From Nautilus pompilius (taxonomy: Eukaryota; Mollusca; Cephalopoda; Nautilida; Nautilidae), in contig JACATO010000052.1 in the NCBI GenBank assembly GCA_018389105.1, forward strand, positions 868,001-932,000: 64,000 bases of DNA. The letters run 5' to 3'. Position 1 is the stretch's first letter. Each line of letters starts with the position of its first letter. Both the position numbers and the translations under genes were made by a program. A model generated the notes under the pieces. The model ran no database searches and was not told where the DNA came from. It saw only the letters and a program-made list of their open reading frames with translations. Of this stretch, positions 7,611 to 63,390 are shown in pieces.

Positions 7611-7631
7611 GATGCCACATTTTCTTCAGAG

Positions 7632-8312
7632 AGATAGAGATGGCATCAGTATATATATAGAGAGATAAGGATGACGTCAGTATATATATATAGAGAGAGA
7701 GAGAGATGACGTCAGTATATATAGAGAGATGACATCAATATAGAGAGAGATATGACGTCAGTATATATATATATAGAGAGAGAGATATGACTTCAGTGTA
7801 TATATATATAAGAGATAGAGATGGCGTCAGTATATATATATATAGAGAGAGATGAAGTCAGTATAGAGAGAGATAGAGATTATGTCAGCATAGAGAGAGA
7901 TATGACGTCAGTATATAGAGAGAGAGATAGAGATGACGTCAGTATATAATATATATATATATATAGAGAATAGAAGATGGCGTCAGTATAGAAAAAGATA
8001 GAGATTACGTCAGCACAGAGAGAGATATGACGTCAGTATATATATAGAGAGAGATAGAGATTACGTCAGCACAGAGAGAGATATGACGTCAGTATATATA
8101 TAGAGAGAGATAGAGATGACGTCAGCATAGAGAGAGATATGACGTCAGTATATATATAGAGAGAGATAGAGATGACGTCAGCATAGAGAGAGATATGACG
8201 TCAGTATATATATAGAGAGAGATAGAATGACGTCCAGCATAGAGAGAGATATGACGTCAGTATATATATAAAGAGAGATAGAGATGGCGTCAGTATAGAG
8301 AGAGAAAGAGGT
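7632..8312. repeat. Minisatellite carrying repeated TGACGTCA (CRE) palindromes
   Basis: About 680 bases are built from three alternating modules: GAGAGAGATA, a TGACGTCA-type core, and a TATATATA run. I count 12 exact TGACGTCA copies plus variants such as TGGCGTCA, TTACGTCA, TGACATCA and TGAAGTCA. In the right half the organisation is higher-order: matching cores fall at 8005, 8061, 8117 and 8173, exactly 56 bases apart, with each unit holding two cores followed by GTATA or GCATA/GCACA. TGACGTCA is the established binding site of CREB/ATF bZIP factors. Whether this array binds anything is unknown. Confidence 0.95.
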
Positions 8313-14388: not shown

Positions 14389-16575
14389 CAACAACTTTGT
14401 AGATAAAAACAAATAACATAAAGCTTTTTGGAAAATGCAGACACATATCTCACTCTCTACTTGTGTAATGTTTCTTACGTTAGGGATAAAAGCTCCATTC
14501 TAGTGCCATTTTAAAGATAAATTCGTGCTATTCTCATGGTGTCTTTTCGTGTGTTTCAGGTGTGACTATTTTTAAATAGGGAGCCATTCTTCAATTGATG
14601 CGCGCGTGTGTGGTTAATATCATACAACAGCGACACACAGACAGCCCCACATAGCCTTCCTCTTAGCTTCCTGAAAACCTTATCAACGGCCGTAATATGT
14701 CGCTTCTAGCCCCTTATAAGAATTGTGAATATTAACCTTAATCCTTCCCAGAACCAACATCAGACGCCTTACTTAGTTTTTATTAACTGGTGCTGAGAAT
14801 CTGAATTTAAAAAAAACAAAAAACAATAGCATATTGTTGATGGTGGTTTTGCTTTTGGTTCAGGGGAGAAATATCATGATCCGTAGTACTTGACTGCTGC
14901 AGGCATTAGGCTTTCCAGTTGAGCGACGCTTGCCAGGGCCAACCACACACAGCCTGTGTAGAAACAAACACGCGGAAAGCGTGGGCCGCTAGTGTCCTTT
15001 AATGACGGAAAACCCCAAACCGTTCTTGTCTTGTTCGGTTCTGACTGATGGACACCGCCCCTTCTGACCGTTATCTATCGCCCGCTGCCAGGGTGTCGCT
15101 GACCTGGCCGCGCTATTATGGTCAGCTCAGAACGAATGCCACAACGAATTACAATAGCCCGTTCTTCGGTGTAAGCCAACTCAAGGAAAAGTCGAATCTT
15201 CTGTTGATTTGTCAAAAAAAAAATAGCAGGTGTAACGGCTTAGATTTCTCCTCTACGTGAGAGGACCGGAAATGAAGAGCCCACCGAACGCGCTGAACAT
15301 TTCTGCCTGGCTCAGCGTCCACTCAGCGCCCCTGATATTCAGGTGATGAGCCTCACACCTGTAAAACGGTTACGCTTCTTTATCCGACCCGAAGATGGAA
15401 GCCCGGTTTCGATTTGGCGACCTCCTGAAGCGTGGTTTCTTGTCCATCTTCTGTACCAGTTCGTCTGCGAGAGCTTTCTTCGAGCGCTCTGGTTTAGCAG
15501 GTGTCTTTCCAGGTACAAGCGCCCCCCCACACACACCCACTTCTGGCTTCTTCCTGTGAAACGTCCACGAAATCTGAAGTCAGGGTAGAGAGAGAGACCT
15601 CGCAGAGAAAGAAAAGATCCGTCTGATGCAGGAAGGAAATTCTGTCAACTAGAAAGAGACAGTGCTTAGAAATGAATAAAAGAAGCTAACGACACTGTAT
15701 TTTGTTAGAAAACCTAAAAGGAACTGCTATGTAGTGTGTGGCATGGCGGACAGTAAAACAAATCCATTAAAAATAGAACCAAACGAAAATGCATCCTGAT
15801 TAAAACACGCAGTACATATATAAACGTTTGTATTCTTTGAAATATTGGCCAACGCTCCCACAGAGCAACGGGAAACAAAATCTAACAAACCTTCATAAAA
15901 TTATCTTCTTTTAAATGTTACTAGTAAAAGCAAAAGTCCATTGTGGTCGATCGTTAAGCATATTTGTTTTACATACAACTTTTCCGTATTTGGGTTGTCC
16001 GCCATCTTTGAACTGTCAATAAGAACCACCTGCAGAGAGATGAAGTTGTGCCCAGTAGAGGACGCCACGAACACACCCGAGAGAATGCCTCCTTTTTATT
16101 GCAGCGTCTTCGCATAAATCGCTTTAAAAAAAACATTCATGGGACTCCGCGACTGTTACGTACACAAGAATGTACTTCTCAGCTGTTTTTGTGTTTTTTT
16201 AATTTATTTAAAGGTTTTTAAAAAGGAAATTCAGTTATGGGTAGGGAAAAAGTGTTTTTTTTTTTTTTTTTTTAAATAAAGTTCGCGCACCACGCCACTA
16301 ATGTCGCGTCAATCGTCAAACTGGAAGTTCTATCGAACGTCGTTCTAAACGCAGTCCATGATTATCTTTTTCTCGGTCAGTGACTCTATAACATCTTGGA
16401 ATCGAAATGGGAGACCTTCTTTCTATACAGATATACCCGCTTTTGTTCGGGAAAGCGGAAACTTGTTCTGGCAAAAAATGTTAAGATTTTGCAAGTTTCA
16501 AGGGAAGGGAAAGAAAGGGGAGAAAGGGTGTGCGCAAGCGTAGCTGGATTTGTCCATGCGTAACTGTAGCCCTTC
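14389..16575. other. Non-coding stretch, no recognised gene
   Basis: Unique sequence with normal CpG and several homopolymers, including poly-T at about 16254-16273. No family motif was seen on either strand. Confidence 0.4.
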
Positions 16576-18130: not shown

Positions 18131-20670
18131 TCTTGTACAGGAAAAGAATTCTGAGATTCTTTGCTCAGGTTCTTCGGTAGAAAGGTGCTGCATGCCATAC
18201 TTCTCCTGTGACCACAGTTTAGAAGAATTAAGACATCCAACGAGCATCAGAGAGAGCTTCAAGGTTGTCAGCATAGAGCAATTAGTCCGCATCACGCCAG
18301 TAAAGAAATTCTCGCATAGATATCGCCAAATTATTGGCGAGGCTTTAAAAGTTTTCGAGCGTTGTGTATGTGCGCGCGCATGTGTTCTGTTTTTGTAGAA
18401 AATAAACTTTTACTTCTCTAACTTGGACTCGATTCCATCCTATATAATAATAAAGATGAAAATGTTGTCTCGAAGTTGTGTATTAATTAAATCTAGTTGC
18501 TAGTGCAATGTCAAGTTATGACAAGCTCATTAAAAAGTCAGATGCAGTCTAAAAGAAAGAAAAAAGGAAAACTTTGGGAAGAAACAGTCTAACAGAAATA
18601 TATACCCACACTTCTGCATCAGTCAACCCAGTATTGTGGCATAAGGTCCTCTTAACGGTAGATGAATGTAGTGAGTTTAGAGTATCGCAGATTGGTTAGA
18701 GTGAATCAAGTTTGGCGATTCCAAAGATTTTGGTGCTGCCCAGAAACTTTCCGCCGTCTTTATTTTTGATTGCGAATTTCCCTGTTGTTTTTTTGAGTCT
18801 TGTTTTTTGTTTTTTTTCTGTCATTCGCGATGGTAGCGCTTTAGTAGCGAGCTTAAACAATGAGATTTTCCATGAGTCCTCTCAGCACTGTTTCGGTTGC
18901 ATTTCCATTCCTGTCTCTTTCTTTAAAAAAAAATAAATAATAATAATTATTCCTATTTACCCGTATACTTTTCGATAATCTAGAATGAAAAGCCAGCAGC
19001 TGTTGACTTAATCTTTCGTCCAAAAGTCGTGACCACACCCCCCCCAACTCGTGTCTGCAAAAACAAAAACAAAACACAAGCTGGCGATGGAGTTTTCGAT
19101 TTAATGGAAATACTCCTACAGAAGAGTTGAATGCTTTTCAGTTTAGAACCAAACGTTGTGGTGGTAGACAGAATAACGGTTTACCAAAAAAGAATTCACG
19201 AATGCGGTCATTCGGCAAAATTATGCGACGCATCAGAGCATCACCGATCGGCCACAAGATTAAAGGGACATAGACCCATAATTCCTAGCTTCCGGCGATT
19301 TGCCACTCCAGGTGGCTGCGATCTAGATCCGTCACAAGCTGCTGGAGTCGTGCCTATTGCCATTGTGGTATGAACCCCCCCACCCACCTCTGTATTTCTA
19401 GTGATTAAATTTATTTTTTTTTTAGAAATAAGTAAACAAACGAAAGTAGAAGGCTAAAAGACGTTGGTCCGTCCGTCTGATGTCAGGATACCTGGGAGCA
19501 ACAGGTTCCCGACTGAACGAAATTGTTGAACAGCGATAATTGTTATTAACGACAAACGTCGACCAACTTCATAATAGGGTAAGTTATCAAACTCTCTCCT
19601 AGAACTAACGTAGCCCCCTTTCGCATTCCTCGACACTCTGGGAATCATTAGAATTTCACCAAGTGAAGCGAGTAAATGCGGGTCAAATGAACGGAAAGCC
19701 CGGATGTGCGACCCCTAGGACCAACGAGAAAGAGCGAGACTACTTACACGTGATGCAATGAAATTAATTAGAATTAACTAAATCATGGTTTTCTTTTTTT
19801 TTTAAAAAAATAATAATAATTAAAAAAAAAAGAAACTAAATCGTTTTAACAGTAGCAGGGTTGGGAGACATTCTCAGCCTGGTTCGTGTTTGGGTTCCAA
19901 CTAAATCTTTTTCTAAAATATATACGGGAAAAGGCAACCTGGTGTTTGTTTGTTTGTTCTTCATCCACCGGACTTACAATCGTTTACTTTCCCTTTCTTC
20001 AGCTCCCTTGATGCACGGATCATTTCTATTTAATTTAGTCACGCGATCAGACAGTAACTTAGATTCAAAAAGGACTAATCGACAACAGAGAAGCACAAAT
20101 AAAAATTAACCGAAAAAAAAAAGGGGGTGTCAGAGGGATAGTTGGGGCTGTGAGCCCCCGCCTCGACGTGGAGAAAATTATTGCATTACCCTAAAAGGGA
20201 TTTTTTTGGTGTAATTGTAGATGTGTCATGAATAATGCAACATGTAAGTGGTTTTGTTTCTGATTTATGCATTTCTTTTGTTTAGGCCATGATGGGACGA
20301 GCACGTTTAATGGAGTGTACCGCTTTACTACCCTACGCTCCACAAGAAAGGGGACGCTTCATTAAAGAGAATATTTAGTTCAGCAGTGGCTCTAGGGATA
20401 TCAGAACGAGGCTTCATCGGCTTTAATATGTTAAATTTATTGTTACACAGTAACGCACACAATGAACACAAGACTCTATTTACGAACATAAAAGTAAAAC
20501 AATAATTTTGGCCACCATCATCGGTTATCAATGGGTTGGTCGAGCTACCGCTCGTATGCTCTAAGTGTCGTGGTACCACGTCGTCACAACCGCTACCAGG
20601 AAGTCCGATCTCCGGCTGTGAGTACAAGATCTCTCTCCTCGCGAGTCTTCCTCGAAGTCAAGTGCTAACT
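18131..20670. other. Non-coding stretch, no recognised gene
   Basis: Unique sequence with A/T homopolymers (18927-18945, 19409-19424, 19796-19835) and a short TGTGTATGTGCGCGCGCATGTG alternating purine/pyrimidine run near 18362-18383. No gene motif was recognised. Confidence 0.4.
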
Positions 20671-20672
20671 CT

Positions 20673-20916
20673 CCGTATACCGCGTCAGTTTCTCACTTCT
20701 CTTATCCCCCCCCCCCTTGGCCCAGCGTAGAGTGATAGCTAGTATTCGTGTTGAACTAGCTGCTGTGTGTTGGGTTAAACATGGTCGTAATGCGAAACAC
20801 GAGGAGTTGGAGAGATACAGATTCCATGTTACAACAGGTTATAATGATGAGGAAGGCACTGCGTATCACAGCCCCTGTGACTCAACCTGTGCTGAGCAAT
20901 ACAGATTTAAAATCAG
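20673..20916 (+). repeat. Dispersed repeat family R1, copy 1
   Basis: Matches 63152-63390 over about 240 bases in the same orientation. Shared ordered blocks include TATACC.CGTCAGTTT/TATACCATGTCAGTTT at the left, TGTTGGGTTAAAC/TGTTTGGGTTGAAC in the middle, and TGTGCTGAG.AATACAGATTT at the right. It runs directly into a (TTA)n microsatellite, a configuration common for the 3' ends of short interspersed elements. No RNA polymerase III promoter boxes are obvious. Confidence 0.75.
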
Positions 20917-22175: not shown

Positions 22176-23370
22176 ACAAAAGCACACATTTTAAATTAAT
22201 ACATTTTTAAAAGAATGTTACATTATTTAAGGCTCCTTCCCACACTAATTCCCTGGTCTTCTCATATCTCTTGCGTTGAAGGGGAAAAACCGTAACAGAT
22301 TATTTCGTGTTAGAAAAACAGAGATAAGCGAACAAAAGAACCTGAGCTCAGTCGGGTATAAATGGAGGGGGAGAATAGAACAAAGTTTGCTTATTTTACT
22401 TAGAAGTGTATGCTGCTCATCAGTCTAGAAATCGTCTATGTATACCAGGTTGATTGGCTAATTTGTAAATTGTTATTATTTTAAATATTTGTTAGTCATA
22501 CTTTTTAGTTATTTAAACATTAAAAAAAAACTAGACACCACCTTCAAACAAAAGTTAAATAGTCATTTTAAACAGTGTAAGTATATACATATAGTATTCG
22601 GTCTTCTGCCCCGCCCAGGGAGACAGCTTTTGCACTCTGTTTCAAATCAACATTCCTGCTGTGTCCCCCCCAACAATATTATCTGTATTTTTATCGTCAT
22701 TCTGTCTTGTTCAGTCTTTTCGCTGGTTTTACTGTTGCCCTTCGAAGGAAACGGGTTTTGCATTCGTAATTATAGAAATAAACGCACAATACGGTTGCTG
22801 TAGGTTTGAATCGGTCTGCGCTTCTTTAAAAGAAGAGAAAAAAAAAGAGAGAAGCGATATATAAACGGAGAATAAGCCGGGCGCTAATCCGACATTTTGA
22901 AAGGTTTCAGAGCCGGTTTCTGGTGTTCGCTATACGACAAGGTCGTAAGGGACACGGCAACTTTATTCAAGGTGAGGTATTTATTTGGCTTTCGATGAAC
23001 GATATATTTTTTTTCTTGTCCCCCCCCCAATTTTGGTTTCATTTTGTTTTAAAAGTCTATTTGTTTTCGTCTGACAGCGAGATAAAAGGGCAGATATCAT
23101 TACTACGGAAGGATGGCTTCCAGCTTTGCTGACGCGCAAACTTTTTGACAATATCTAGTTAAAAAAAAAAAACATCATGGCAGAAAAGGGTTTTTCGGGA
23201 GCTGCTGGCTAAATTATACCTTCTAGAGAAAATAGCATCCACTGCTTCACTGCATGGGGGGTGAGCCTCGCTTCCACCGCGAAACTCAGGAAGGGGCACG
23301 ACGCCCCAAGTCCTTTTCCACGGTGACCTAATCCAGACTGGCTGTCCGGGCCGGCGAAATCCTCACTAGA
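22176..23370. other. Non-coding stretch downstream of Olig
   Basis: No gene recognised. It could hold part of the Olig 3' untranslated region if transcription extends this far. TTTATT (an AATAAA signal on the minus strand) occurs near 22981. Confidence 0.35.
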
Positions 23371-23374
23371 GCCC

Positions 23375-23380
23375 TTTATT
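23375..23380 (-). terminator. Candidate poly(A) signal for Olig
   Basis: The plus strand reads TTTATT, so the minus strand carries AATAAA about 535 bases downstream of the Olig stop codon. This is a plausible 3' UTR length, but other AATAAA copies lie further downstream and no transcript evidence exists. Confidence 0.3.
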
Positions 23381-23914
23381 TCTAGACGTGTGAGGAAACC
23401 GGAGTTCGGGGCTCGTTGGTGGAGAAGCCAAATTCTACATTTACATAATTGCTGTTATCTTTCACTTTAACCTAAACCAAGGCAGTTGTGCGGAGACGTC
23501 GTGCAAGGTTTTAGGAGAAGCACCATCGCAACACCTGCCAATCAATGAATCAAACTGGCCAAGTAAGTTATAATCTTGTTGCATAGTGTATTTTCGAAAA
23601 TGCTTATATACAAAAAAGGGAAATATTACTTTGAAAACTTATTTACATTGTAAACAGCGTAGTAAAAATAAATGTTGCTTTTTTTTTTCCGTAACATAAA
23701 TTCTAGATCAAGCGATCGTTCAATGCATCAGACGCGAAAAGTGTGAAAGATGGAGTTGTCTCACTGGTTCGGCCGTCATCCCGTGTTGTGTGAGTTCATC
23801 TTAAGTAAATCCAAAACGGTTCGGTCGGGTTAGGGGGGAGTTCCAGTTCGGTCACCTTTTCTCGGTAATCCCGTATTTACGAAGAAAAACGCGAAACAGT
23901 GTTGGGTTGACAGT

Positions 23915-24592
23915 TCACTTCCTGGGAACGTGATGGGAGAGCAGGTGAGACGGAAGTTTATCGGAAGGAAGGGAGTTGTAAGGGGTTCTAAGAGGGTCCA
24001 AGATACACTGGCTGCAGGCGCAGGGAGTCGGCCACCGACCGAACAGCACGTGCCTGGTGTCCGGCGGCGGAGGGGGAGTGGATTCCGGCGACATCTCTTT
24101 GGTCAGCAGGGTGGCGGGAATCGACTGGTGGAGAGCGGCGGAATGCCGCGGGGGCTGGGGGCGCGTCGCGTGCGTCTGGTAGATGTCGCTCACCAGCTTC
24201 TTCATCTCCTCCAGCGAGTTGCTCAGCATCAGGATATAGTTCTTGGCCAGGAGGAGCGTCGCGATCTTCGACAGCTTCCGCACTGACGGCCCGTGAGCGT
24301 AGGGCATGACTTCCCGGAGTCCGTCCAGCGCTGCGTTCAGGTCGTGCATCCTCCGCCGCTCGCGGCTGTTTATCTTCAGCCGCAGCTCCTGCAGCTCCGT
24401 CTCGTCCAGGGACTTGTTGGCCGGGATGCCTTTGCGCCGCATCTTGCCCGCGGAGGAGAAGCCGTCGGACAGGGGCGAGCCGCTCTCGCTTCGGATGTCC
24501 TGGTTGTTGGAATCCGCCTCCGCTGTAGCCACCATAGTTAGTTCCTTCTTCAGGATTTCGGCAGAGTGTCGTCTGAGCGTTTCCGTGTCCAT
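23915..24592 (-). CDS. Olig-family bHLH transcription factor
   Basis: A 225-residue nuclear DNA-binding regulator in one exon, as is usual for Olig genes. The basic helix-loop-helix domain spans about residues 71-137. The basic part and helix 1 read [20 protein letters not shown], followed by the loop [17 protein letters not shown] and helix 2 [20 protein letters not shown]. The [20 protein letters not shown] segment and the KLVSDIY end distinguish Olig from other E-box bHLH families; MPYAHGPS with INSRER points to Olig rather than bHLHe22/23. Glu78 and Arg81/Arg82 of the basic region, which contact the E-box, are present. The flanks are Ser/Pro-rich and disordered, with a poly-Pro run near 173-177. 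A C-terminal TPCACSQC motif (189-196) resembles the cysteine motif of other Olig proteins. Known relatives dimerise, bind E-boxes and act mainly as repressors in neural fate. The start is the first in-frame Met; Met20 is an alternative. The gene faces away from CTU1. Confidence 0.93.
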
Positions 24593-28003: not shown

Positions 28004-28085
28004 CCATTTCATTTTTAGATGTGGGAGGAAATTCACGCAACCAGCTGGTGAGGAGCGAGACGGGACAAGCTGAAGCAACTCCGCC
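28004..28085 (-). repeat. SINE family S1 fragment
   Basis: The plus strand reads TTTTAGATGTGGGAGGAAAT...CAGCTGGTGAGGAG, matching the middle of other minus-oriented copies such as 44470-44530. Only the body segment remains. Confidence 0.5.
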
Positions 28086-29929: not shown

Positions 29930-30135
29930 CCACGTGGACCCAGTCAGAATTGGATGATGAATATGTGTACCTCGGGAGGAAAAGCCCTATTGGCACCCTT
30001 TATTTTTAGCTGTGGAGGGCACCTTGGCCGGCTGGGAAAGAAGAGCGAAAGAAAACCGTGCTTAGTGTGGGGGGGGGGCCAAACCGATCAGGATTCGAAC
30101 TGGCGTCTTCAAAACTTAGTAGTTCAGTAGCCTTA
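29930..30135 (-). repeat. SINE family S1 copy, minus orientation, with clear B box
   Basis: The plus strand carries GGATTCGAAC at 30091-30100, the complement of the polymerase III B box GTTCGAATCC, followed by the complement of the tRNA-like head. To its left are the family body blocks GGAGGAAAAGCC, TTTAGCTGTGGAGGG and GGCCGGCTGGGAAAGAAG. It lies outside CTU1 and is the best-preserved B box of the family here. Confidence 0.75.
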
Positions 30136-31323: not shown

Positions 31324-31380
31324 ATGCCTAAGAAATGCCTATGTTGTGATAAAAATGCTGTTTTGAAGCGGCCTAAGACG
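31324..31380 (+). CDS. CTU1 coding exon 1
   Basis: Nineteen codons, [19 protein letters not shown], ending at a consensus donor ACG/GTAAGA in phase 0. This is the first zinc-ribbon cysteine pair and the invariant LKRPKT strand. The Met is the family's usual start. Confidence 0.94.
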
Positions 31381-34300
31381 GTAAGATTTCCTTTTAAAGT
31401 AAAAGCTTAATAAAGATGTAAGTATTGTTGTAATGTCCCTACTACGAGGGACAGGGAGTCGTGTGTGTGTGCGTGCGGTGGTTAAACACGGTTCTGTTAA
31501 ATCCCCCGAATTTAAAATTCTGGTTAATTAACCTAATAATAATAGTAATAATAGTAATTTTAAAATTGTGTGTTCGTAACACCGGAATCTCTAATGTCTT
31601 GTTTACCTCCTGATTGTTTTCATTCTGTTTCTAAGTCAGCTATTTCTGACCGACAGAGATGTGACCGAAGGCGATAGTCCTTAAGTTTTTACTCCCCCAC
31701 TGGTTATACTCGAGCTTTTAATTCCGTTCATTTGCCCTCGAGTTCTGCATTTGCTCCATTGGAAGTTTTTAGGAACTTAAGCAAACAAAAATGCGTTTGA
31801 TAGCGGTGGGACGGGTGTAGCGACGGAGGGAATTCGACCAACGATCGGCCCGAATGGACTCGGGTCATGACTAGCCAGGTCGGTGCAGCCATGTAACGTC
31901 GGACTCGTGGGCAGAAAACCTTCGACTGAGATAAAGCTGCTCATAAATTCAAAGCGTGGATACCCATGAAGCTCTCTGCTAACACGCGTACACAATCCTC
32001 AGGTTTGTGTGTATGTATACGTATGGTTTTTGAAAAAAAAAAATCCTCTTGGAAAGGTGGCATTAATTAATTTATCCCTATAAAAAGACTAAATAGTAAA
32101 GCAAATTTCCTGATATCTGCTATTATTATTTGGCTTATTGATAACTGAAATTTAATATTCACTTATTTGTTGATGCGGTGAATTGTTTAGTTTGATTCGT
32201 ATATAAAAGCAGAAAGCAAATGTAGTACATTCAGGATTTTTCAGTGCCATTGTTAAAGTGATTAAAGTTGGTAGATGGTCTGAAAGGCAGAGAGTTTTTA
32301 AAAATAGCTCTTGTGCCCCCCAAATTGAAAACTGAAGCTACTTTTAAAAAATCAAAAATAAGACTTACGATTTTTACCTCAGCTTAGCAAAACTTTCAGC
32401 AACAGACTCTGATTAATTAATTGAGAAGTGCTTTCAAATATTTAATGGAGCATGTTTTTTTTTATTAGTCTTTGTAATTAGTTGTCTTTTAAATGAAATT
32501 TCAGTGTCACCTTTTCCATGACCTCCATAAAAGTTGAGATTTACTAGCAGAAATTGAAGCTAATGTTGCTTGTGGTGATATTTAACCCTTCTAGATAATG
32601 TTAGGTTGGAGAAGAAGAGCCATCCTAATTTTAAGATGCAAGTTCAAAGATGAGCTATTTACCAAGGAATATCACACAATGAGATTTTTTTTTCTGCTCT
32701 AAATTGGCTGAATATTGTACTTTATTTTTTATTTAAAATTTTTCCACTAACTTAATAACTTTTCCCCTGTAAAACTTTGCATTTTCAAATATGGTTCTTT
32801 TATCATTATCTGTTTCAGCATATGAAGGAAAAGGATGGTATTCTAGTATAACTCAAGATAGCTATATTCCATAGGGAGTAATTTAATTATATTACTGGCC
32901 TGAATACTTCATTGAGGTTTTAATTTTTAAAATTCATTGCTTAGAAATATAAAACAATCAATGAACAAAGAATGCAATGTGCATTTCTAACATTTTTTTG
33001 TCTGACAAATTGACTATACTTAAGTTTGCAGTAAAGGAAAGCATTTTCTTTTTCTCTCTCTCTCTCTCTCTCTCCTCCCTCTTTCTGTGTAAAATGTATG
33101 TGTATAGTATGCAAATTAATTTTACTGTTTGTTAAGATAATATATTTTAGAAGCCAAAATAAAAAAATATTCCATGTTATATTCCAGAAAAAGAAGAAGA
33201 AAAAATTAATAAAATATAATTCTTCATTGATAGAGGAACATTTTTTTCATATTTTTCTAAATTTTAGTATGTAACAAATCTTTTAAATGAGAGCAGAATT
33301 AGTTCTAACAAGTGTACAATAATAAATATAAATGAAAACAGGAATTTTTTTCTGTATAGAATTTTAGTACACACTTTTAACTTGGAAGATCAAAGATACC
33401 AATGTTTATCTCCCTTGGATTACATTTTACACTTTGCTTATAATTATATTAAAGTCTTTTAAATAAGGCATTGCAGTTTTTAGCAGAGGCTGAAAACACT
33501 TATTCAGAGCCCCATGTTAAGACTTATTTATCAATGCCTGCTTTTAACTGGATGACACTGTCACTATAACAACTACAGTTTAGACTTTTTAAAAAAAAAA
33601 TTTGGTCAGTATTCTGATAATAAAAACTTTCTTTTTTTTTTCCTATTTTAAACTCTCATACTGTTTATCTAATTTTTAAATTATTATTAGACCCTCAATT
33701 TTTTTCCTCCATACTGACAATATTATTTAGTGTCTATATGTTTAAATCTTTTTTTTTTAATTTAAAAGAACATTTTCAGTTTCTTTTATGTGTCTAGGAA
33801 TTATACAGGGCACACAGACAGACCAACCAAAACTGTTTTGAATAATTTTAAATATCTTGGAAGAAACACAGGCACACTGTTTGTTTTTTGTTTGTTTGTT
33901 TGTTGGTAAATAATTTAATAATAACCATGAATTAAACTTGTTCTTGTTTTTCTAATGCAGGATCAAAATGTAAGTCAAGCAGATTTTCTGAACTTTTAAA
34001 ACGTAGCAACAACAGTTGTAATATTTTTGGCAATTGCATTATAAGAAAATTGCAGAAGAAAGACTTGGTAAACATATTTATTATCTTGCAGATTAGATAG
34101 CTGAATGCTTGTAATTTACTGATCTGATTCAGATAGTTACTTTATTTTCATGTTTGTATGCTAGAACTTTGTCCATTTTTTTAAAACCAATGTTATTTCA
34201 AAGTACATCAAACTTACTGAGTGGGAGACTAGATGGAGAAAATAAACTGTTTCCAACCAGAGTTTATCAGATTCCTGAGAGATAGATAGGTGAAGATGAC

Positions 34301-37300
34301 ACCATGTCATAATGTGGATTCTTCATGATCATGCATTGAAGCTAAGCAAACTAGATTATGCAGGTCTGTGTATGATTATCTAATTTGAATATTTTATAAT
34401 TACTTATGAAGTATTGTGTCAGAAAGTGCACTATAGAGATTCTCATATTTACATGACTGGTACATCTTACTTACTATAGATTTGTAATAATTATATAACT
34501 TTTTTATTTTCAAACCAAATTGTATCATTACACAATAATAACATTATTACAGAACTTTAAACAGAGTTAGTATAGTGGCTTATGTTATATAACTTTTAGT
34601 GTTATCATTGTCTCATCTCCAATTTAAGAATTCTATTGTTCTGGATTACCAGCCATGATCTAAGATAGATTAGGGAGAAAGGGCATATGCATGGTGTTGC
34701 TCACATAATCCTTTTATGTCATGTACAAACGAACCCACTAAAGTTCCTACTGGAATCTCTCATCATTAGATTTGGGTGGAGATGCACATGGGTGGGTGGC
34801 AGAGAGGGACAAAAAGAAACCGGCTAGGAAGGCATGCCAGGCTGAGCTGGTCCTTTGCAGAAATCAAATTTGGGGCAACAACTTAAACAATCCAGTAGCC
34901 TAACCACTACTACCCTAATTTTAGTATAGATTTACTTAATATTTTTTTTTTACACTTAATATTTATTAATAACTACATTTTCAAAATTAAAAAGATAGGC
35001 ATATGGAAACAAAATCCATACCTCAGTATTTCAAATTTGAAAACTTTTAAAGCCGAGCTGGTTTTAAAATACTTCTGTGTAGAGTCCACATGTTTTGTTT
35101 GATATTCCACTTGTCAGATTTCATTGGTAAATAGCAGACACTTGAACTCAGACTGGTCTCTTGTCCAGTGTAAAAAGTAAAGATCATTCAAGTCATTGGA
35201 AGTAACACTAGTTGTGTCCCTTCCCTGCGTTGTAGTGTCAGCAACCATGGTAGAATCTTGCTTAACATTATCTGATGTTTTTATGCATGCACATTATATC
35301 ACTGTTCTAGATTTTGTCTTATTTTCGGCTTGTCCTTCCTGTCTGGATTTTGATTTCATTCAATGTCAGCTTTAATGGTCTCATAATTGTGCTCATTAGT
35401 TTCTCATATAGCCAGCCTGTGTAGCCAATGCCAAAACCTATGGAAAGATGTCCTGCTTCACTGGTTATGGTAATTCCCTTAATATGTAAACTCATTGGAT
35501 AATTCAGAGCTGGGACTTCAGGAGTGTGGTTTTCTTGTGGGTTCATTTAATTAATGTGATGTGAAGGATTTGATTTTCATGAGAATCTGGAGCACATGTG
35601 AGGTTCTTGTATTTCTAAATAATGAAAGTAGAAAGCATTGTTCAACTGAGTAATTATGATTGAACTTCTGGTGCCTCTGGAGTTTCAATAACATACTTTT
35701 AAATGACATTTCATTTACACACACACACACACCTGAGAAAAATGCACACGTTGACAGGAAATTTTCATTGTAAGTTATCCAGTCTGTCAGAGTTTGGTAG
35801 AGCTTGTTTATCAGATCTCTAGTTCTGTTGAAATTTTACTTAGAAAGGGAACTAATCCTTTTGCATGTACAATTTCAAATGGCAGCTAATTCATGGGATT
35901 TTAAAATTTAAAAAAAGAAAGCATCATTTTTGTAAAAATTGTTTGTATTTTCTTTTTATTTATTTAATATTAAAAATAAAATAAAAAAGTTTTTTAACTT
36001 CTCTTACATAAAGGGTCTTTCACAAACATTATTGCCTACTGTCTACAACTGTATGATGATGAAGTTGCAGGGTGGTACTTCTGTCTTTGGGAAATGGAAA
36101 ATCTCTGCTAGGACTTCTGTTAGCTGTGCATAGAAAGCATGTAATTGGAGGAAATCTATACTGATGGACTGCTACAAAAGATTGCAAAAAAATAATATTT
36201 TGGGTGGTTCACCAAACCAAGTTGGCTCCAACAGGGATCAAATTGAGGCCCTCTGATGCAACAGGCTGGTACTCTATATGCCTGGCTATAATATTTTTGA
36301 AAATAGAAGCAGATGTTCATAATTTTTCACCTTGTTTTGCAGTGTGACAAATCAACTTAGTGTTTTGGTAGATAAATATGCTTAGTTACCTTCATAAATA
36401 GTTTTAATGTTGACAGAAATACAGGAAAGCTTTTGATATTGTGCAGTTTTTAGTGTCTGTTTCTCAATTTTGAAAATTTTTTAATTGGACATTACTAACT
36501 TTAGTTCATTACAAAAATTTGGTGGCTTTTATATTATGTTAATTTGAAGTTAATTTTTTGCATGCTTGTGAAGGTGTATGTAGATAAGTTATAATTGTTT
36601 TGTAGCGTGTGCTTTGGCATACATTACATGAAGCCTACCTTTTTTGAAAATCATAAAATGGATATTTGTTTCAGGGTTTTGGGTGAAGCATGGATAAAAA
36701 AGGTTTTTGTGCCATTTTGCTTCACAAGTTTAAACTAGGCCACAAAGTGAGTGAGGCAACTCATAACATTAAGTAAGCATTGGATGAGGACACAGCACAA
36801 ATGAGTGCACACTACAACGATGGTTTACAAAGTTTCAATCAGGAGATGTGAGCCTCAAAGATGAGGAATGTAGCAGACGCTCTTCCAGCTGTGATGACAA
36901 CCATCTGAAAGTCTCAGTTAAAGCCAATCCAAGAAAGAAAGAGAGAAATTGCTGAAGAGCTTGACGTAAGCACTGCAAGTGTTTCCTGGCATCTTGATAC
37001 AATAAGCAAGATGAAAAGGCTTGACAAGTGGGTGCCTCACGAGTTGAACGACAACAACAACAGTCATCAATTGGAGATCTGCTCTTTGCTTGTCATAAGA
37101 AACAAAACCTGACGAAACCATCACAGCTGAATGATATTGCTGTGAATTAAACATTGCTCACCAGAAACTCTCCCAACGATAGCTGGCATTAGTGAATCAA
37201 AAAGGCCCAATCCTGCACCATGACAGTGCTCGTCCTCATGTTGCAAAAGTGACTCTTGAGAAACTGAACATGTTTTGGTATGAAGTTCTCTCACAGACTA

Positions 37301-40300
37301 ACTACCACCTTTTCAAACACCTCGACAGTTTTCTCTGTATGAAATCCTTCTCCAACCAAGCAGCAATTGAAACTGCCTTCCAACACCTTATTGACTCCAG
37401 AAATCCAGATTTTTTTTCAAAATGGTATAAATGCGCTTGTAACTCATTGGCAGAAGTGTACTGATTGTAATGTAACTTACTTTGGTTAATAAACTCCACG
37501 TTCAACAGCGATATGAAGTCTCATTGTTGCGATAAAAAAACCCTGAGAAAACGTTTGTAACAACCTAATACATTAGTGAAATTAAAATAAAACTTCAACC
37601 TTTTTGTAACTAAATCTGTACCTCAGTGTTTCTTTATGATAAAATAAGTGTTCAGTAATTTGTTCTTTAAGAAGTCTTCTTGGGTTACTAAAATCTGTCA
37701 TTTCCAGCCAACTCAGGAGATGAGTTATATGATATACTTTATATTCTGAGATCTGTGGATTCATTGTTTCATTTGTTTGGTTGCCATGGTAACACCGAAA
37801 GTTCATTGAATATCCAGAAGCACATTGGCAGAGTTTTGCCCCCTAACTATCAGAATTGAGCTATTCTTTTTTTTTTTAATTTGAAGATAACATTTGTTGT
37901 TTGGATGCAATGTCATAGGGATTTTGCATATTTTTATATGTTTTATTCTTTTAGGGATTTTCTAAATTTTGTAAAGTTTGAGAATCATAAATTTTGACAT
38001 ATGTACTCAAAACTTCCAAACTTATGCAGATGATAAAATTTTCATAAAACATTTCATTTGACATAATATGTGATACTGCATTTTAGATTTGAAGGTATTT
38101 GAATGGGAAAAAATTATGGAAGCCAGAAAGTGATGATAAATAGCTTTTAAAAAAATCATGTTAGGGAAGATGCACTAGAAAATGCAGATAGACATAGGAA
38201 ATCCATATTGCCTCCACTTTATCTACTCTACTATGTTAACAATATTCATATATGGAGAGTGCGTGTGCATGGTGCATGTGTTGACATCAATCTAAAAGCT
38301 GAGAAATATGACTTGTTCAAAATCTTTGTTTTTTTACCCAAGAATATCTGTTATCTTGTGAGCTGGTATTAAAATAATTTTTGTGAAGTACAGGTTTTTT
38401 GATAGTTCAGTTGTCATGAATTTGTTTTTTAAAAATAAAATAGAAACATTACTAATATAAAAACTTAATATTTTATATTCATTTAACATTCTAAAAGTGA
38501 ATGTTTCTTAATGCAAATAAGGAGTTGTTGGCTTATAATCAGCTAATAAGCTCATGTCTAATATTTAAATGTGGTGAATTATCTAATTGGCGCATGTAGT
38601 GATACAAATCAGTAATTAGAAAAAGAATTCTTGGGAGCTAGTGATCACCCTACAACTGTGGAAGTGTCAAAGCTATGCCATAGAAGAGGAAACTTTTTTG
38701 GCAGTGTATAGATCAGGATTTTTGTCGTGAGTGATGTGAGATATAGAAGAATAGCTGCAGATATAAATGTCAGCCAGGGTGTAGCAAGCAATATTGTGGC
38801 CAGGTACATATATACAGGTCCTCTGAAAGTGCTTGGTTAACAATGGAACATGGAAATTGACAATTTTTACAGTATGGTCACTTAGAATTAAAAGTGGGAA
38901 CAACAGAAAACCCACTGCTCTTGAGCTGACTGCTGAGATGTTTTAAGAAGTTGGTGTCCAGAAGTCGATCTCTGCTCTTGAAAAACATTTGATAGATGGA
39001 ACTTTCTTGGCAGGGTTGCTTACCAGACAGGAAGAAATGTAAAAGTTTTTGTGCTGCACCTTGCTTGGATGGTGGAAAACTGGAAGCCTGATGGGCATTG
39101 ATAGTTAATTTAAAATCTTCAACAATAAGGTTATGCTAGGAGATGGCAAGATTTTGCAGAGTGTTTGGCGACAGTAAAGTGCAGGGGAGGAAGTATGATT
39201 GTCAGGACCTGCATTTCTTTCTTTGGTGTTAACGGAGAAAATAGAGAGAGCTATCCTACAAGGTTTAACGTGGTGTCCTTGACCTCCATGTAGTTCTATC
39301 TGGTTTTTACTTAATTGGGTAAAACAGCTGGTTTTAGGAAGAGAACAATCCCTAGTGTTTAGTGAAGTTGTGTTTGGGCTATTGCCAGAGAATGAATAAA
39401 TGGCAGCCAAGGTGTCATGCAGGATGTTCAACCTTGTCATCAGATTTCTGATCTTAACCTGCTTGATGGTGTATTGGTTCACTTGGATTCTAAGAGGAAA
39501 AAAAGTGCTGAAAGTTTGGCTACAACACCATATGAAGACTTGAAATGAGTATGAGATAAAGTATCCCTTCTGTCAGTTTACATAAATACAATACCAGATA
39601 GATATCAGCATGACTTGGCTCACATCCTTTACTTCATGAATTTTTGGCTCTGGCTCTGAACATGGCATCTAGCAGTATACCATTGCTGCTGATAGTAATT
39701 TTTGAGAGTTTTGCATTGCATTTAGCTCTAGTGAATAGTGGGTTCTTTACTAATGGGTGTCCTACCCTATTAAATTTTTAAAAAATATCTAAGAATTCAC
39801 TGCTGCTACTACTGCTTTAAATCTGCATACCACTGTTGGCGCATAAGACCGGAGGAAACCCCTAGTTTTAGTATTTTTAGATGTGAGAGGAAACCAGTGA
39901 AGGAAACTCATAGTTGGCTAATGAAAAAGAGTAAGAAGAAACAATGGTAGTGAGGTATGCCAAACCAGCACACTAGTCTGCTGTTGTTTCAAAAAGGAAT
40001 TAAATAATTAAAACTTTTGTTTATCTAATTTCAAATAATTTTAACAGTCAGTACACCTAAAGGTCATGTTTGATGCCAATGCAGTCATTTTAGATTATGA
40101 AAGTAGCTTAGTAAGGTAATATTTTGTCTGTAGAATCATGCTAATATCTGAAATCTACTCATTGATGATGTATCTTGGCTTATAGAAAGTGGATTTTTCA
40201 GTATAAAATAATTCTACAAATGTATTATTATTAAATAATGAGACTTGAAAATAGCCATTTTTTTCCCTGAAATTTTTAAGAAGTTTCAGTCTAATCTGTA

Positions 40301-43300: not shown

Positions 43301-46300
43301 CCAGCCAGTGATGTCCTCTCTCTATTCTCTGTGGTTTTCTTCCTCTTCTGGATGCAGGGTAATCCCATGATCCACCTACCATTGGCTTCTGTCTAATCTG
43401 ACTTTTTTTTTTTTTTCAAAAACCATTAAATTTTTAACTACTAATTGTACTAGTAGAAATCTGTTAATTACATAAATAATAGTAATAAGTCGATGTTTAT
43501 CATTAATCAAGCTTGTTTTCAATAAACAAATTTTTCATTGCTTTAAAATTTGGGCTAAAACAAGGTTAGAGTTTCAAAAATCTTTAGAACATAATATTTT
43601 ATTGATTATTCATTAGTAAAGACATTAAAGTCCTTTAGAAAAATAATGACATTAAAAATCTCATAAGCATGTTTGTTTTGTTGTTTTTTGTCAGTCTATG
43701 CGTATCTTTTGCTTAAATTAAGCTATGTAGATTATCAGGATACATTTATTGGAGTCAGTCGCTAAACATGGGATACCTAGATCCTTGTTGCCTGGGGTCA
43801 TTTATTTGGAAATAGAAAAGAATACATTATATTAACTTTCTAAATATGGAGGTATGGGTGATTAGGCTGCTGGACTGCCAATGTTGAGAACCTGAGTTTA
43901 GTTCCTGGTTGAGGTCAACGCAGTTTGGCTTACCCCTCTGGCATGGTTTCTTCACCAGCCAGTTATGTGGGTTTTCTGTTATTCTCTGCTGAAGTCAGCA
44001 TCATCATGCAAGATGATGTCTTCCAGCAGATAACCGTAGCACTACACTTCCTTTCCAGGGTTGTCCCCCTTGTACAGACTGGAAAACTAAAAAAGAACCA
44101 ACTTGTAATGTAGACTTGATCATATGCAGCTGTTTTGAAACTATGACAACACTCCCTGTAAAGAAGCTGGATTTTCAAGATATTTACATGTAATGCTGAT
44201 GATATAACTTTATCAACACCAGTTATAAAATTACTGAGATGTGCCTATTTAAAAACAAAAAAAACAAAAGAGCATGCTTACAGTCTTAAGAATCCATGCA
44301 GGAAGAAGACTCAAATTCTTTGTAGCTTGTGATAAAGTGAAACTAAACACACAGTACCAGTATCATGATATTCACCACCATCATCAGGAAGATGAACAGG
44401 TGGGATGTTTTCTTGTTGCTTTCAACGAATGTAGGTGATTAATGGAGGCCCTACTAGAGCTGCTTAATTTTAGATGTGGAAGGAAACCAGAATGCACAAA
44501 GAAGACCCATGCAGCTGGCCAGTGAAGAAGCAAGAAGACCAATGCTGGTGTGGTATACCAAACTGAGCCAGTCTTGACTGAGATTCAAACTCAGAGCCCT
44601 GAACATAGCTTTCCAGATTAATGTAAGTTTTTTGGTTTTAATAACATATAGTAAGTAAACAAAATGTTTTAATAATTTTTCTTTTATAATATATAATTTG
44701 TAAAGTTGCTTTGTGCTGATTTTTTGTGTATTTGGGAATAGACTTTAAAATGTTTGTGTAGAATAGGTTCAGTATTTTTCATTGTGCAATAAGACCTAAG
44801 CTCCAACAAAGCACACAATTTGTTTTTACATAATTTATCGCTTAGGAGCTTTCAAAACTTGCTGGCACACCTGTTTAACAAAACCAACTTATTTGAATCT
44901 AATGTATTTCACATTTGTGGATAAATCGCTATAATTGTTTGTTTTTGGTTGTTGTGTTTTTTTTTTTTTGTAACTCTGCAAAGAGCTCCAATCTTTAAAT
45001 GCGTAATTTTAGAAGCTTTTATACTTCTCCTCTCTATGGTTTTCCCAGCCCCCTGCAAGGATTATTGTCAAGTTTGTTTCAGAAATGTCGTTAAGAAAGC
45101 ACCGTATTCATTGTGACAGCCAGGGTCTGCTTTCTATGGGATTACCATCTGTATTTGACAGGTAGTCTTAGGGACAGCATTGGGCCTTGGTCCCTGAGCA
45201 AAACACCTTGCAACTTTAAAACCTACCTGAATCAGAAAGGCTTAGGGTTCCCTGCTGAGAAAATTAGCACCCGGAAGCCTGCAGAGGCAGAGAAGCCTCC
45301 AAAAGGAGCCTTTGCAAGATGTAATTTGACTAGCTACAGGGGCCAACTAGAGGGAGATTATAGGGATCACTTGCTAAAGTTGGGACTGCTAGGAGGAGAA
45401 ATTTTGTGTGATTGGGTAAAGAGGGCAGCGTGGAGGCTATCCTGTTCTCTCTCCTGGTAAATACTTTTTTTGTCTTATGAGCATCTGTCAAAATATCAGG
45501 GGTTTGGGGTACATACACCCTGCTAGAAAACCTTTGGTGTAACTTGACCATCTGATTTTTTGTGAAGTCATATCAGCACTATTAGATATCATTTAGATGA
45601 TTATTGAAGTGCTATCACTATGGATGTAGAAATGTTTGAGGTTTTTTTATAATTATAGCTTTTGTATCCTTTCTTTCTTTACCTGGCACATAGGGATTTA
45701 TAAAATTTAATCTCTATTTAAATTATTCAACTTCCTGCATCTTTTGGGAAACAAACTTGCATTATCAAGATAAAAGCTCTTTAACTTTACCAATTCTTTT
45801 GTTTTGTATGCTATGATGTGGTCGGATTTTTTGGGAGAGGCATAAATCTTAATTAAGCATTTGCCGTAAAGAAAAAAAAAAACTAATCTTTTAAATCATT
45901 AGTTTTATACTGTACATTTACTACTTGGGAAAAGCTTTCAAGTTTTTTTTTCTGCCCCTTCCTCAGTCTTATGTGTTGATGTGTTTTTAGGTAGAATTTA
46001 TTTTTTTTTTAACAGGAGAGCTGTGATAACAGTGCCAGCAGTAATCACATCTTAACTTTTAACAATTCCTTCCCTCTAAAAGAAACAAAAAAAAAACAAA
46101 AAAACAGGTTTTTAGATACAAATATCATCTTTGATGGAAGGGCAGCTGGCAAGGTTGGCAGTTGTTGCTGTCTATTGCTCAAATTGTCATCAGGGGAGAA
46201 TGTGTGGTGTGAAGGTGGTGTGCTGTTTCCCATCAGCCAGAATATGTTTCGAAAGGCAACATGAAGAAGCTAATCTGCAGTTCTGACATCTGTTTCTGAG

Positions 46301-49300
46301 CTGCTCAGCAGTGTCAGCATCCAGCGTGAGCGAGGTATAAATCATGGGGTAACATGTATGGCACACGTTCAAGGGTTTGTTTTTCTGCTCCTGGCTAGTA
46401 TTACGCTGCACTTTCTCCAACACGCAGGGGCCTGATCCTGAGAAAGCCTGGGCCATCTTGCACCCTAATTGGGAAAGATGTCCTATTGTGAATTTGTCAC
46501 TCCAGGTTGCCACTTCTTAGGGAGATAAAATGCAGCCTTCAGAACTAATTGATCAACATGACAAAGAGGGCTGGCCAGTGTGGACATTAATGTTCATTAC
46601 CAGTGCCAGGTCTCGTTAGATCCATCTGTTTGGAATGAAGGAGACAAGCACATCTCCATCTGCCGCGCCTTAGATAGCATCAGGCAGCTTTAAATGAGAT
46701 GCTAGGCAGCAGATTTTTGATAAATATTCCAAAGTAAAATTTAATCAACTCTGGATTCTCGTGAGAGATCTGCCTTGCAGTGGGGTGGAGTTAGGGAGTG
46801 CACGTGACCAAATGGTCAAAGTTTTGTAAATAGGGACCTGTCACTTGATTTGACCCTGATTATTGTACAGATATCTCTGATTACAAGATTGAACTTTTTT
46901 TTAATTATTATTTTTTTAAGCAATAATAGCCCTTGTATGTATCAATGTTGTTCGACTGAAAGTGAAATTGCCTAAATGTTTGTATCAGAAAGTGTACTGT
47001 GTTTATTGTCCAGCAGGCATATTAGCTTATGTAGGGGTTTCTGTTTTTGTTTCTCTCTCTCAAATGAAATGATTTAGATTTTTTGTCTCTGGTAATATCA
47101 CCATTGTAATTTTATGATATAAAACATTGCTGTTGCCCATTTTTGTTCTTTAATTTTTTATTACCATGTTAGAAAGTTATGATAAAAGATATGGTGATAT
47201 ATTATATACTCTTCTTTGTAGGCCCTCTGAAAACTGCAAGTGTGCTGTTCTTGAAAGATTCTGACTTGGGCTTAGAGAAGATCTGATTTATCCCATCTTC
47301 CTGAACAAATTGAATTATTGCATCTGTAGAGTTGGATGTTTCTTGTTTCCCATCTTAGACACATTAATTTGGAAGGTTTATAGAGAACTTTGCTTTCATA
47401 TACATCATATATGAAAAAGAACAGGGGGGGTTGAAGCTCATTTTGTAGATTCTGTTTTTACAGTCTGCTTGTAATTATATTTTTTTCTCACATGTAGAAA
47501 AAAAAAATAATAAACTGAACTTTTACAATAAAAGAAGTGTACTCTTCCTGAATGTGTCAAAATGGGATGCCTACGAGACTGCCAAAGCTGAGGCCCCTAG
47601 CTTGATTCTCAGTTGGGATTGACTCTGTTTGGTGTATCTTCCTGGCTTGGTTTATTCTCGCTCTTCACTATTTGGTTTTGTGGGTTTCCTGTCTCATCTG
47701 AAAATGAAGAGTTCTAGTAAGGATTCCCTGTAGAAGGCAGATGTGCTGGGACCCTAGTGGCACAGGATAGGCAATTCTCTCTAGCAGGTAAACTGTACGC
47801 TCCCTCTCCAGGGTTTTCTCCCTTGTAGTAGAGAAGTTATCTCCATTGTGGAACTTGATGTGCAACAACAGAAACAATATATAGAAATGAGCAGAAAGCT
47901 GCTTTAGGAAGTGTATATTGATATGAAAAGCATGGACGTTCACCCATAATTTGTATCTAACCAGATTCGATTTGAATATCTCTAGTGTGATAAACAAAAG
48001 CTAATAGCATTGGTGTTAAGTTAACAGTAGGGGTGGTAGCACTGTGATAAGAATAGTGTGTTTATCTGTGTTTGCTACAAAGAGTGGTTGAGTCCTGCAG
48101 GATGCTAAAATATGTGAGTAAGCTGCCTCATTTCAGAGACATAGCAAATAAGGCAAAACAAAATTTAGAAACCCTAGGTATAGTTTAATTTCAAACTGTT
48201 GTGATTTTTTTTGAGAGAAACTGACAGACTCCAACATATTTATAAGAAATCTGCTGTTATTTCATTGTAGCTGCAATAATCAATATTAATGTACATTAAG
48301 TATTAAATAGCTATGTATCACCACCTCTGTTACTGTGATTATGCGTTGTTTAGTGGATTGAATGAGGGGTGGTAGATTTAACTTACCATATATTCATACT
48401 ATAATGGAAGATTGCATGGTGATATACAGAAATAGGAGTCTGCTACATGGGTTATCACAAAACAGCCATCTCTTGAATTATACAAAACTTCCAAATTTTA
48501 CCTGTTCTACTGACTCATTAAAAAAAAGAAGAAAAATTATTCTTCAAAAATCACATTTTGGATCATACAAAATGATAACAATTTGAACTGTGTAACTATT
48601 TATCAGTAGGTAAAACCACAGGTAATATATTTTCTATACATTTTTTTCTTGATTTATCACCATTTTATGCACACCACTCACCTTCCATGTTTTTCATTCT
48701 CAATTCTTAATGTGGACATTTCTGTTGTAGTGGAATCTTACATGTATAGGGTTGATTTGAAGGAACACAAAATTCTGTTTGTTAACATTGTTGGAAATAA
48801 TTAAGGAAACAGTTGAAAAACTGGATATAAAGTGAAAATAATGTGATAGAATCATATCTCGTTTTTAAATTAAAATGTTCCCTCTTAGCACAGTTATATG
48901 TAAATATAGTACACTATGAATCGTTGTCATGCAATCAGAAAGTGCCACGCTTGCAGAAGGAAAGTACTGTAAAAGTTTAGGAAGTGATGTTATTGTAGCA
49001 TGATGAATGTGTGGTAAATACTATGGCTCCTGAGAAGGAAATATTACATGACAGGTGTATATAAATCAAAGTCTTAGCTACTGAAGGCTACTCGTGTGAT
49101 ATTGCAGCTTGACTTATTGTTTTAAAAGATGTATGCAAGACTTTGAGGAGGATATGTGAAACTAGACAATAGATGTAGTTGAGGAAGAAAGTCCAAGGAT
49201 ATATTCTCTGTGATAGATAATGAGTCAGTAGAGATTCTGCAAATTAGTGTGAAGTGGTCTTAGTGGATATGTAGCAGCCTGAAAATTTTTGCTGAGGAGA

Positions 49301-62860: not shown

Positions 62861-63151
62861 CATGGTAATTAATCACTGGTTGTTCTTTTAAAATGGATTT
62901 AGTGGTTACGCTGATTAGTTTATAGGTTTGATGTCTTATTTTTAATACTAAGGTGTAATGCAATCTTTCTGAATTAAGATAGCTTTTATGATGGCTCTTT
63001 GTTTTTATAGTGGAAATATGGGAACACTGCCATATTTCTCAGATATACACTCATACCCGAGGATAACTCTGTCTGTCGTCTTGTCTTTTTTTTTAAAACA
63101 CTAGGTAACTTCGCAAAGTTAACTTTGGAGATTTAGCTTAGTTATCTTTAA

Positions 63152-63390
63152 CCCTCCATATACCATGTCAGTTTTTAGCTTCCTTATACTACCAACCTAG
63201 AAGCGCTAGCTGGTGTTTGGGTTGAACTGGTTGTTACCTAGTCAACACACTTGTAATTCAAAACTTGGGGGCTGGAACATTATGGATTTGTTGTTACTAA
63301 GGGGTATGTTAAAAAGGGAGGTACTGTCTATCATAGCTCCTATACCTCAATTTGTGCTGAGTAATACAGATTTGAAGTGGTATGCAGAGG
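63152..63390 (+). repeat. Dispersed repeat family R1, copy 2
   Basis: Paralogue of 20673-20916, sharing blocks in order from TATACCATGTCAGTTT to TGTGCTGAGTAATACAGATTT. Here it lies in CTU1 intron 4 and lacks the TTA tail. CpGs present in copy 1 are often TG or CA here (for example TATACCGCG against TATACCATG), in line with deamination inside the methylated gene body. Confidence 0.72.

Follow-up and report, generated by a model that had tools for sequence, protein, structure and literature searches.

A sharp fall in CpG content just inside CTU1 of Nautilus pompilius, the probable imprint of a germ-line methylation boundary

The window analysed here is a stretch of 64,000 nucleotides from the genome of Nautilus pompilius, positions 868001–932000 of contig JACATO010000052.1 (C52) in the 727.6-Mb assembly. 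It contains the beginning of the gene CTU1 and an Olig-like bHLH reading frame (Table 1). A Pfam search with nine reading frames of the window besides CTU1 found only the HLH domain of the Olig-like frame; the name Olig is that of the original prediction, and we take it to be appropriate. The window has no Rfam match to a structured RNA at the gathering threshold. The open frame at 37192–37464 looks by eye like a relic of a mariner transposase, with an HDxARPH motif that we take to be a sign of such enzymes, and has no Pfam match at E 0.01.

Table 1. Features of the window; position 1 is its first letter, and o/e is the ratio of observed to expected CpG
Feature	Position	Strand	Remarks
CpG-rich domain, window part	1–32020	.	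o/e 0.97; right part of a 36.4-kb domain
Olig-like bHLH reading frame (225 aa)	23915–24592	-	HLH by Pfam; inside the CpG-rich domain
CTU1 coding exon 1	31324–31380	+	19 codons, then GT; 2 CpG; left of the step
CpG step	31987–32069	.	95% interval; 31991–32308 if conditioned on C content
CpG-poor block	32021–64000	+	o/e 0.19; G+T strand excess over the CTU1 body
CTU1 exon 2	60663–60786	+	0 CpG; ends by eye at AG/GT
CTU1 exon 3	61432–61550	+	PP-loop ATP_bind_3 region; ends by eye
CTU1 exon 4	62512–62568	+	ends by eye
Repeat copy, rich side	20666–20911	+	paired with 63149–63376
Repeat copy, poor side	63149–63376	+	CpG-poor counterpart of 20666–20911
Old interspersed repeat, SINE-like by eye	44448–44616	+	member used in the CpG retention test
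Same SINE-like repeat, right side	34744–34900, 36102–36271, 39870–39967		
Same SINE-like repeat, right side	43865–43984, 47569–47723, 55963–56128	-	
Same SINE-like repeat, left side	8979–9069, 15386–15480	-	
Same SINE-like repeat, left side	23359–23432, 28006–28068, 29984–30132		

The first intron of CTU1 is 29.3 kb long, and later matches to the gene continue outside the window, collinear and on the forward strand, up to C52:945,833. As the query took its first 19 residues from the window itself, the independent support for exon 1 comes from two other matches. The joined exons 1–4 match the TtuA-type tRNA thiolase of PDB entry 6scy (E 4e-15) starting at residue 3, and residues 5–29 match the TtuA N-terminal domain with 22.3 bits, below the cut-off of 27. 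The Pfam domain ATP_bind_3 scores above its cut-off and, together with the 6scy match, bears out the identification of the gene as CTU1 in the original prediction.

The CpG content of the window changes abruptly inside this gene. In a model with one change point, the o/e ratio falls from 0.97 (1,390 CpG observed, 1,426 expected) to 0.19 (171 observed, 918 expected), and the maximum-likelihood change point lies after position 32,020 with a log-likelihood gain of 554, or at 32,210 when conditioned on C content. The original prediction had placed the step 0.7–0.9 kb inside CTU1, and it was found 0.70 kb past the ATG (31,324). The predicted counts of 14 CpG in 9001–9240 and two in 32221–34020 proved exact on recount, the Olig side keeps its CpG as had been claimed, and the poverty asserted up to the window end continues for 44 kb beyond it, to C52:976062. 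The step is independent of G+C content because the contrast persists at matched G+C: in windows of 30–34% G+C the median o/e is 0.91 on the left (n=9) and 0.16 on the right (n=19), and the gap between the medians of matched classes is 3.5- to 8.6-fold, the smallest classes having n=1 and n=3. An artefact of G+C was thus ruled out. Tandem repeats were discarded as a cause as well, since the left side without its arrays still has an o/e of 1.01.

Several compositional measures shift abruptly at this one point, as they would if an assembly chimera or a contaminating sequence had been joined at 32 kb. However, exon 1 of CTU1 lies left of the step and its other exons lie right of it, collinear and on one strand; one repeat family occurs on both sides; and similar steps are present at other genes of the contig. 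Because the CTU1 exons are in order and the repeat family is common to both sides, a chimeric join is very unlikely, to the point of being negligible, and we rejected it.

The poor side lost its CpG by decay, the signs of which are an excess of TG and CA and the state of repeat copies. Right of the step, the CpG deficit of 747 is accompanied by an excess of 478 TG and 428 CA (906 together), in agreement with the predicted frequency of these dinucleotides, whereas the left side has neither the excess nor the deficit. In four alignments between left and right sequences (E<=1e-4), 12 of 16 left-side CpGs are CA or TG on the right, compared with 8 of 25 GpCs that appear as GT or AC in the control (Fisher p 0.011). 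Seven of the eight aligned CpGs of the rich-side repeat copy listed in Table 1 are CA or TG in its poor-side counterpart. CpG retention was further measured in an old interspersed repeat represented by 37 copies, five of them in rich and 32 in poor DNA. Four alignment columns were regarded as ancestral CpG, by the rule that at least two copies have CG and that 60% or more have CG, TG or CA. Rich-sited copies kept 8 of 14 such sites; poor-sited copies kept CG at 4 of 107 and have TG or CA at 76 and other dinucleotides at 27. In the GpC control (nine columns), 11 of 22 sites were kept in rich-sited and 78 of 217 in poor-sited copies. The p value of 5e-6 for the retention contrast is optimistic because there are only five rich copies and the sites within each copy are not independent.

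The surroundings of the window were divided by a two-state segmentation of 264 kb (C52:768001–1032000), with rates set after the profile had been seen. The poor state covers 217 kb (o/e 0.14–0.25 by segment) and the rich state 47 kb. The rich DNA consists of one 36.4-kb domain at C52:863,593–900,020 (window positions -4407 to 32020), within which the Olig-like gene lies and the o/e is about 1.0, and of six islets of 0.3–2.8 kb. A Tc-type transposase domain is located on the forward strand of the rich domain at about 866.2–866.6 kb of C52. Selection could retain CpG in the Olig domain for regulation, for example by CpG-binding factors or at CRE-like sites, and the window indeed contains 17 copies of the motif TGACGTCA, which we take to be a CRE-like palindrome, compared with three in the other 200 kb. 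However, an o/e of about 1.0 over 36 kb, or 1.01 free of arrays, resembles the absence of loss and not enrichment, and the poor side shows decay. We consider such selection highly improbable as the origin of the step. Twelve of the 17 motif sites belong to the tandem array at 7628–8305, the unit of which carries TGACGTCA.

The step in CTU1 is one instance of a neighbourhood pattern, which was found in all three genes with placed starts. A TMEM50-like gene lies on the forward strand in the 850–863-kb block (UPF0220; TMEM50A query). Its ATG is at 850,019 and its rich/poor edge at 850,438, about 0.42 kb downstream, with CpG thinning up to 850,889. Between 946 and 976 kb, MutS domains occur in order on the reverse strand, the one searched there, with a weak domain II (E 0.02), and the best PDB match for these pieces is MSH2 (E 7e-35 and 2e-32). 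A human MSH2 query, run against both strands of the 264 kb, gave 21 pieces on the reverse strand from 972,025 to 946,472. The ATG of MSH2 is at 976,824, as read by eye from the frame, and the edge at 976,063, about 0.76 kb inside the gene; the corresponding positions for CTU1 are C52:899,324 and 900,020. The 5′ ends are therefore spared in all three genes, as expected from the claim that promoters are left bare. Within the genes, CTU1 combines CpG depletion with an excess of TpG and CpA, and the exons of MSH2 and the TMEM50-like gene are CpG-poor as well. CTU1 and MSH2 are convergent, their ends lying no more than about 0.6 kb apart (C52:945,833–946,472) in a common CpG-poor block. At the other side of the Olig domain, the left edge at 863,593 (863,500–863,621) lies about 4.9 kb beyond the last coding exon found of the TMEM50-like gene.

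The assembly encodes DNMT1 and DNMT3-type sequence, a trait of animals with mosaic gene-body methylation. A DNMT1 exon on contig C649 matches DNMT1 in the PDB (E 1.7e-38), and DNMT3-type catalytic exons were found on C2302 in a one-way search with a human DNMT3A query. The same query matches a DNMT3-like frame at C1449:92900–94500 that has no introns, spans 413 aa and is open at its 5′ end; it is possibly a retrocopy alongside the multi-exon DNMT3-type gene on C2302. The presence of these sequences bears on the proposal that the two sides of the step differ regionally in mutation or base composition, by biased gene conversion or a context-dependent bias for instance, and owe nothing to methylation. 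The G+C content does differ, from 0.42 in the Olig domain to 0.35 in the block right of it, and by rough arithmetic CpG loss explains about half of this. Against a compositional origin, which we regard as improbable, stand the DNMT1 and DNMT3-type sequences, the 3.5- to 8.6-fold o/e gap that remains at matched G+C, the specificity of the loss for CpG with its matching gain of TG and CA, and domain edges that can be located to about 0.1 kb and lie just inside three genes.

To gauge how far the poor state extends, 20 windows of 1.5 kb, set at round coordinates, were sampled from seven long contigs. Five windows were on C52, the other six contigs came from the list of homeobox matches, and one window was without bases. 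Eighteen of the 19 readable windows have an o/e below 0.45, with a median of 0.17. The poor state is the usual one in the sampled DNA and the CpG-rich side of the step is the exception, which corrects the context of the original prediction. Depletion of most of the sampled genome (18 of 19 windows, 217 of 264 kb) is a trait of global methylation.

Developmental genes are spared from the depletion and constitutive genes are mostly subject to it, in line with what had been predicted for the former. Windows at homeobox genes, ten of the top fourteen matches (two on C1804, one on C561 and one on C1988 were passed over), all have an o/e of at least 0.6, with a median of 1.07 and a lowest value of 0.64. 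Among DEAD-box windows, ten of the top thirteen matches (three were passed over, of which two contain an internal stop and one is a very long frame), eight are below 0.45, one of them at 0.44, and the other two have 0.46 and 0.83. Around four homeobox genes, probes placed at distances of 5, 10, 20 and 40 kb in both directions are rich (o/e of at least 0.6, one at 0.60) in 28 of 31 readable cases and poor in three, whereas one of eight probes in the flanks of a DEAD-box gene is rich (0.98). Under global methylation, the flanks of developmental genes would be depleted beyond a few kilobases; here those of the four homeobox genes stay rich to 20–40 kb, which is beyond vertebrate expectation. Under mosaic methylation, untranscribed intergenic DNA would keep its CpG. 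The Olig domain and the homeobox flanks do keep it, and 18 of the 19 readable sampled windows, which may or may not be transcribed, are poor.

The poor blocks are mostly associated with a strand skew of the transcription type. They have an excess of G over C and of T over A on one strand, the sign being mostly constant within a block, and the Olig domain has nearly zero net skew (-0.006 and +0.008). Counted in bins of 3 kb, the two skews are correlated across the 71 bins of poor DNA (rho 0.51) and uncorrelated across the 15 of rich DNA (rho 0), and |Z|>2 is reached by 46 of 71 poor and 3 of 15 rich bins, two intermediate bins being left out. A correlation between the skews is also present among the sampled windows that are poor (rho 0.64, p 0.004; n=18), nine of which reach |Z|>2. 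The last 20 kb examined (1,012–1,032 kb) are poor, yet have little T-A skew. The sign is positive over CTU1, a forward-strand gene, suggesting transcription of its body, negative over 946–976 kb, positive over 850–863 kb, where it lasts past the TMEM50 coding exons up to the left edge of the Olig domain, and negative over 822–848 kb. It flips at C52:942,457 (940,742–945,115), near the tail-to-tail junction of CTU1 and MSH2 at 945.8–946.5 kb. Introns of human and mouse have a transcription-associated asymmetry of G over C and T over A that switches sign between opposite genes; in Nautilus, by contrast, where the mitochondrial code is of the invertebrate type, the skew lies on the very blocks that are CpG-depleted.

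The gene searches guided by the skew covered the strand that it predicted. MSH2 was found on the reverse strand, where the negative sign had predicted a gene. A search of the reverse strand at 838–848 kb, one 10-kb piece of the 822–848-kb block, found no Pfam domain. A glycine-rich hit was discarded as spurious, produced by reading stop codons as glycine, and these regions were afterwards searched with stop codons read as other residues.

Based on the CpG profile, the gene positions and the skew, an origin of the step can be proposed. We consider it probable, at about 0.6, that a germ-line methylation domain over the CTU1 transcription unit has left the trace of its 5′ boundary in the base composition, as the step; we infer the methylation, its timing in the germ line and the histone marks. 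Transcription would place elongation marks on CTU1 from a few hundred bases past its start, and these marks would recruit DNMT3. The enzyme would be excluded from the promoter by H3K4me3 and from the surroundings of Olig by silent, untranscribed chromatin. DNMT1 would maintain the methylated state, and methylated CpG would be deaminated to TpG and CpA over evolutionary time. The original prediction of a gene-body methylation boundary stands in its CTU1 call, its deamination-type CpG loss and the sparing of 5′ ends in three genes, and it is strengthened by spared homeobox and mostly depleted DEAD-box genes and by the transcription-type skew of poor blocks. Its specificity for gene bodies is less certain: 217 of the 264 kb and all but one of the 19 readable windows are depleted, and the poverty extends across the CTU1–MSH2 gap and for about 4.9 kb beyond the final coding exon identified in TMEM50.

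The same extent could be explained if germ-line methylation were near-global unless prevented, protection being limited to promoters and long developmental domains. The step would then mark where protection of the Olig domain ends on the right, the domain having merged by chance with a CTU1 promoter islet. Near-global methylation fits the extent of the poor compartment nearly as well as the gene-body reading does, and overall we regard it as possible but doubtful. The 217 poor kilobases and the 18 poor windows agree with it, and such a share is above that of classic mosaic methylation, which speaks against the transcription-coupled boundary unless germ-line transcription covers almost the whole genome. 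Of the six islets, four measure 2.0–2.8 kb, a promoter-like size, and two of these are at the starts of TMEM50 and MSH2. Poverty beyond the TMEM50 coding end and the lack of clear skew in 25 of 71 poor bins also favour near-global methylation and, with the nine of 18 poor sampled windows short of |Z|>2, weigh against the transcription-coupled boundary. So do the exceptions among DEAD-box genes (two of ten windows not below 0.45 and one of eight probes rich), the three poor homeobox probes and the empty Pfam search at 838–848 kb, one of three regions chosen by skew. Near-global methylation is opposed by the homeobox flanks, rich to 20–40 kb in 28 of 31 readable probes, and by the concentration of |Z|>2 skew in poor bins (46 of 71, compared with 3 of 15 rich ones). 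A purely global depletion unrelated to genes is weakened by the skew pattern and by the discovery of MSH2 and TMEM50. The transcription-coupled reading, which we favour, and the near-global one differ solely for DNA that is neither transcribed nor developmental.

The locus shares features with two known types of methylation landscape. In animals with mosaic gene-body methylation, such as Ciona, Pacific oyster, octopus and Nematostella, constitutive gene bodies are likewise CpG-depleted, 5′ ends and developmental genes are spared, and boundaries are sharp. Here, however, the depleted compartment dominates the sampled DNA, and the depletion is very deep, with a median o/e of 0.17 over the 19 readable windows. 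Genomes with global methylation and CpG islands or valleys (vertebrates and, as cited by other papers, the sponge Amphimedon) have a similarly low background o/e, CpG-rich promoter islets and long rich domains at developmental transcription-factor genes. In contrast to those systems, the developmental domains of Nautilus reach tens of kilobases into the flanks (28 of 31 probes), and, by strand skew, the CpG-poor DNA has a tendency to track transcription units. Methylation domains of Ciona are reported to have sharp boundaries, and one domain may cover convergent genes, which is matched here by the CTU1/MSH2 block (PMC3827831); oyster methylation rises sharply after the start site (PMC4378273); less than 10% of CpG is methylated in octopus (PMC9476566); and more than 60% is methylated in nereid annelids, in data that are not genome-wide (PMC11292947). 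Remethylation in Nematostella is linked to transcription-associated marks, with H3K79 methylation a better predictor than H3K36me3 (PMC13345969). That result speaks against our preferred mechanism, as does the report that Ciona boundaries are tied neither to the first methionine nor to the stop codon (PMC3827831). Literature searches of titles and abstract openings found no paper on methylation or CpG content of Nautilus. The step alone would be an ordinary case of a methylation boundary recorded in sequence, and it gains weight from its scale: a genome in which little besides promoters and developmental domains escapes CpG depletion contrasts with octopus, where methylation is reported to be sparse. 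Such depletion would allow germ-line transcription units, promoters and developmental domains to be read from an unannotated assembly.

Tandem repeats follow the same division of the DNA. All 23 tandem-repeat rows of the window are left of the step. Within the 264 kb, arrays make up 7.0% of the rich DNA and 0.13% of the poor. Among the remaining sampled windows, of which 41 are rich and 36 poor (one in-between was left out), they cover 1,693 of 32,500 rich bases (5.2%) and 62 of 44,000 poor bases (0.14%). Tandem repeats are thus 37- to 53-fold denser in CpG-rich DNA. This confinement speaks against the transcription-coupled methylation reading, since methylation alone does not predict it. We speculate, tentatively, that the genome has two compartments, in which transcribed DNA is about as poor in CpG as that of mammals, skewed and nearly free of tandem repeats, and promoters and developmental domains are CpG-complete, unskewed and tandem-rich, and that a single mark, H3K36 methylation, writes all of these properties. 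It would attract DNMT3, causing CpG loss, and follow elongation, causing skew; by attracting MSH6 through its PWWP domain it would improve mismatch repair and leave few microsatellites. H3K79 methylation may be an alternative to H3K36 methylation in attracting DNMT3, going by the Nematostella result (PMC13345969).

The assembly contains 117 COX1-like matches (e.g. C112:262789–263529), most with internal TGA, which suggests that nuclear copies of mitochondrial DNA may be abundant. One COX1-like nuclear copy examined by eye has AGA at an expected serine and nad2 just upstream, presumably reflecting the motifs of an invertebrate-type code and the nad2-cox1 order.
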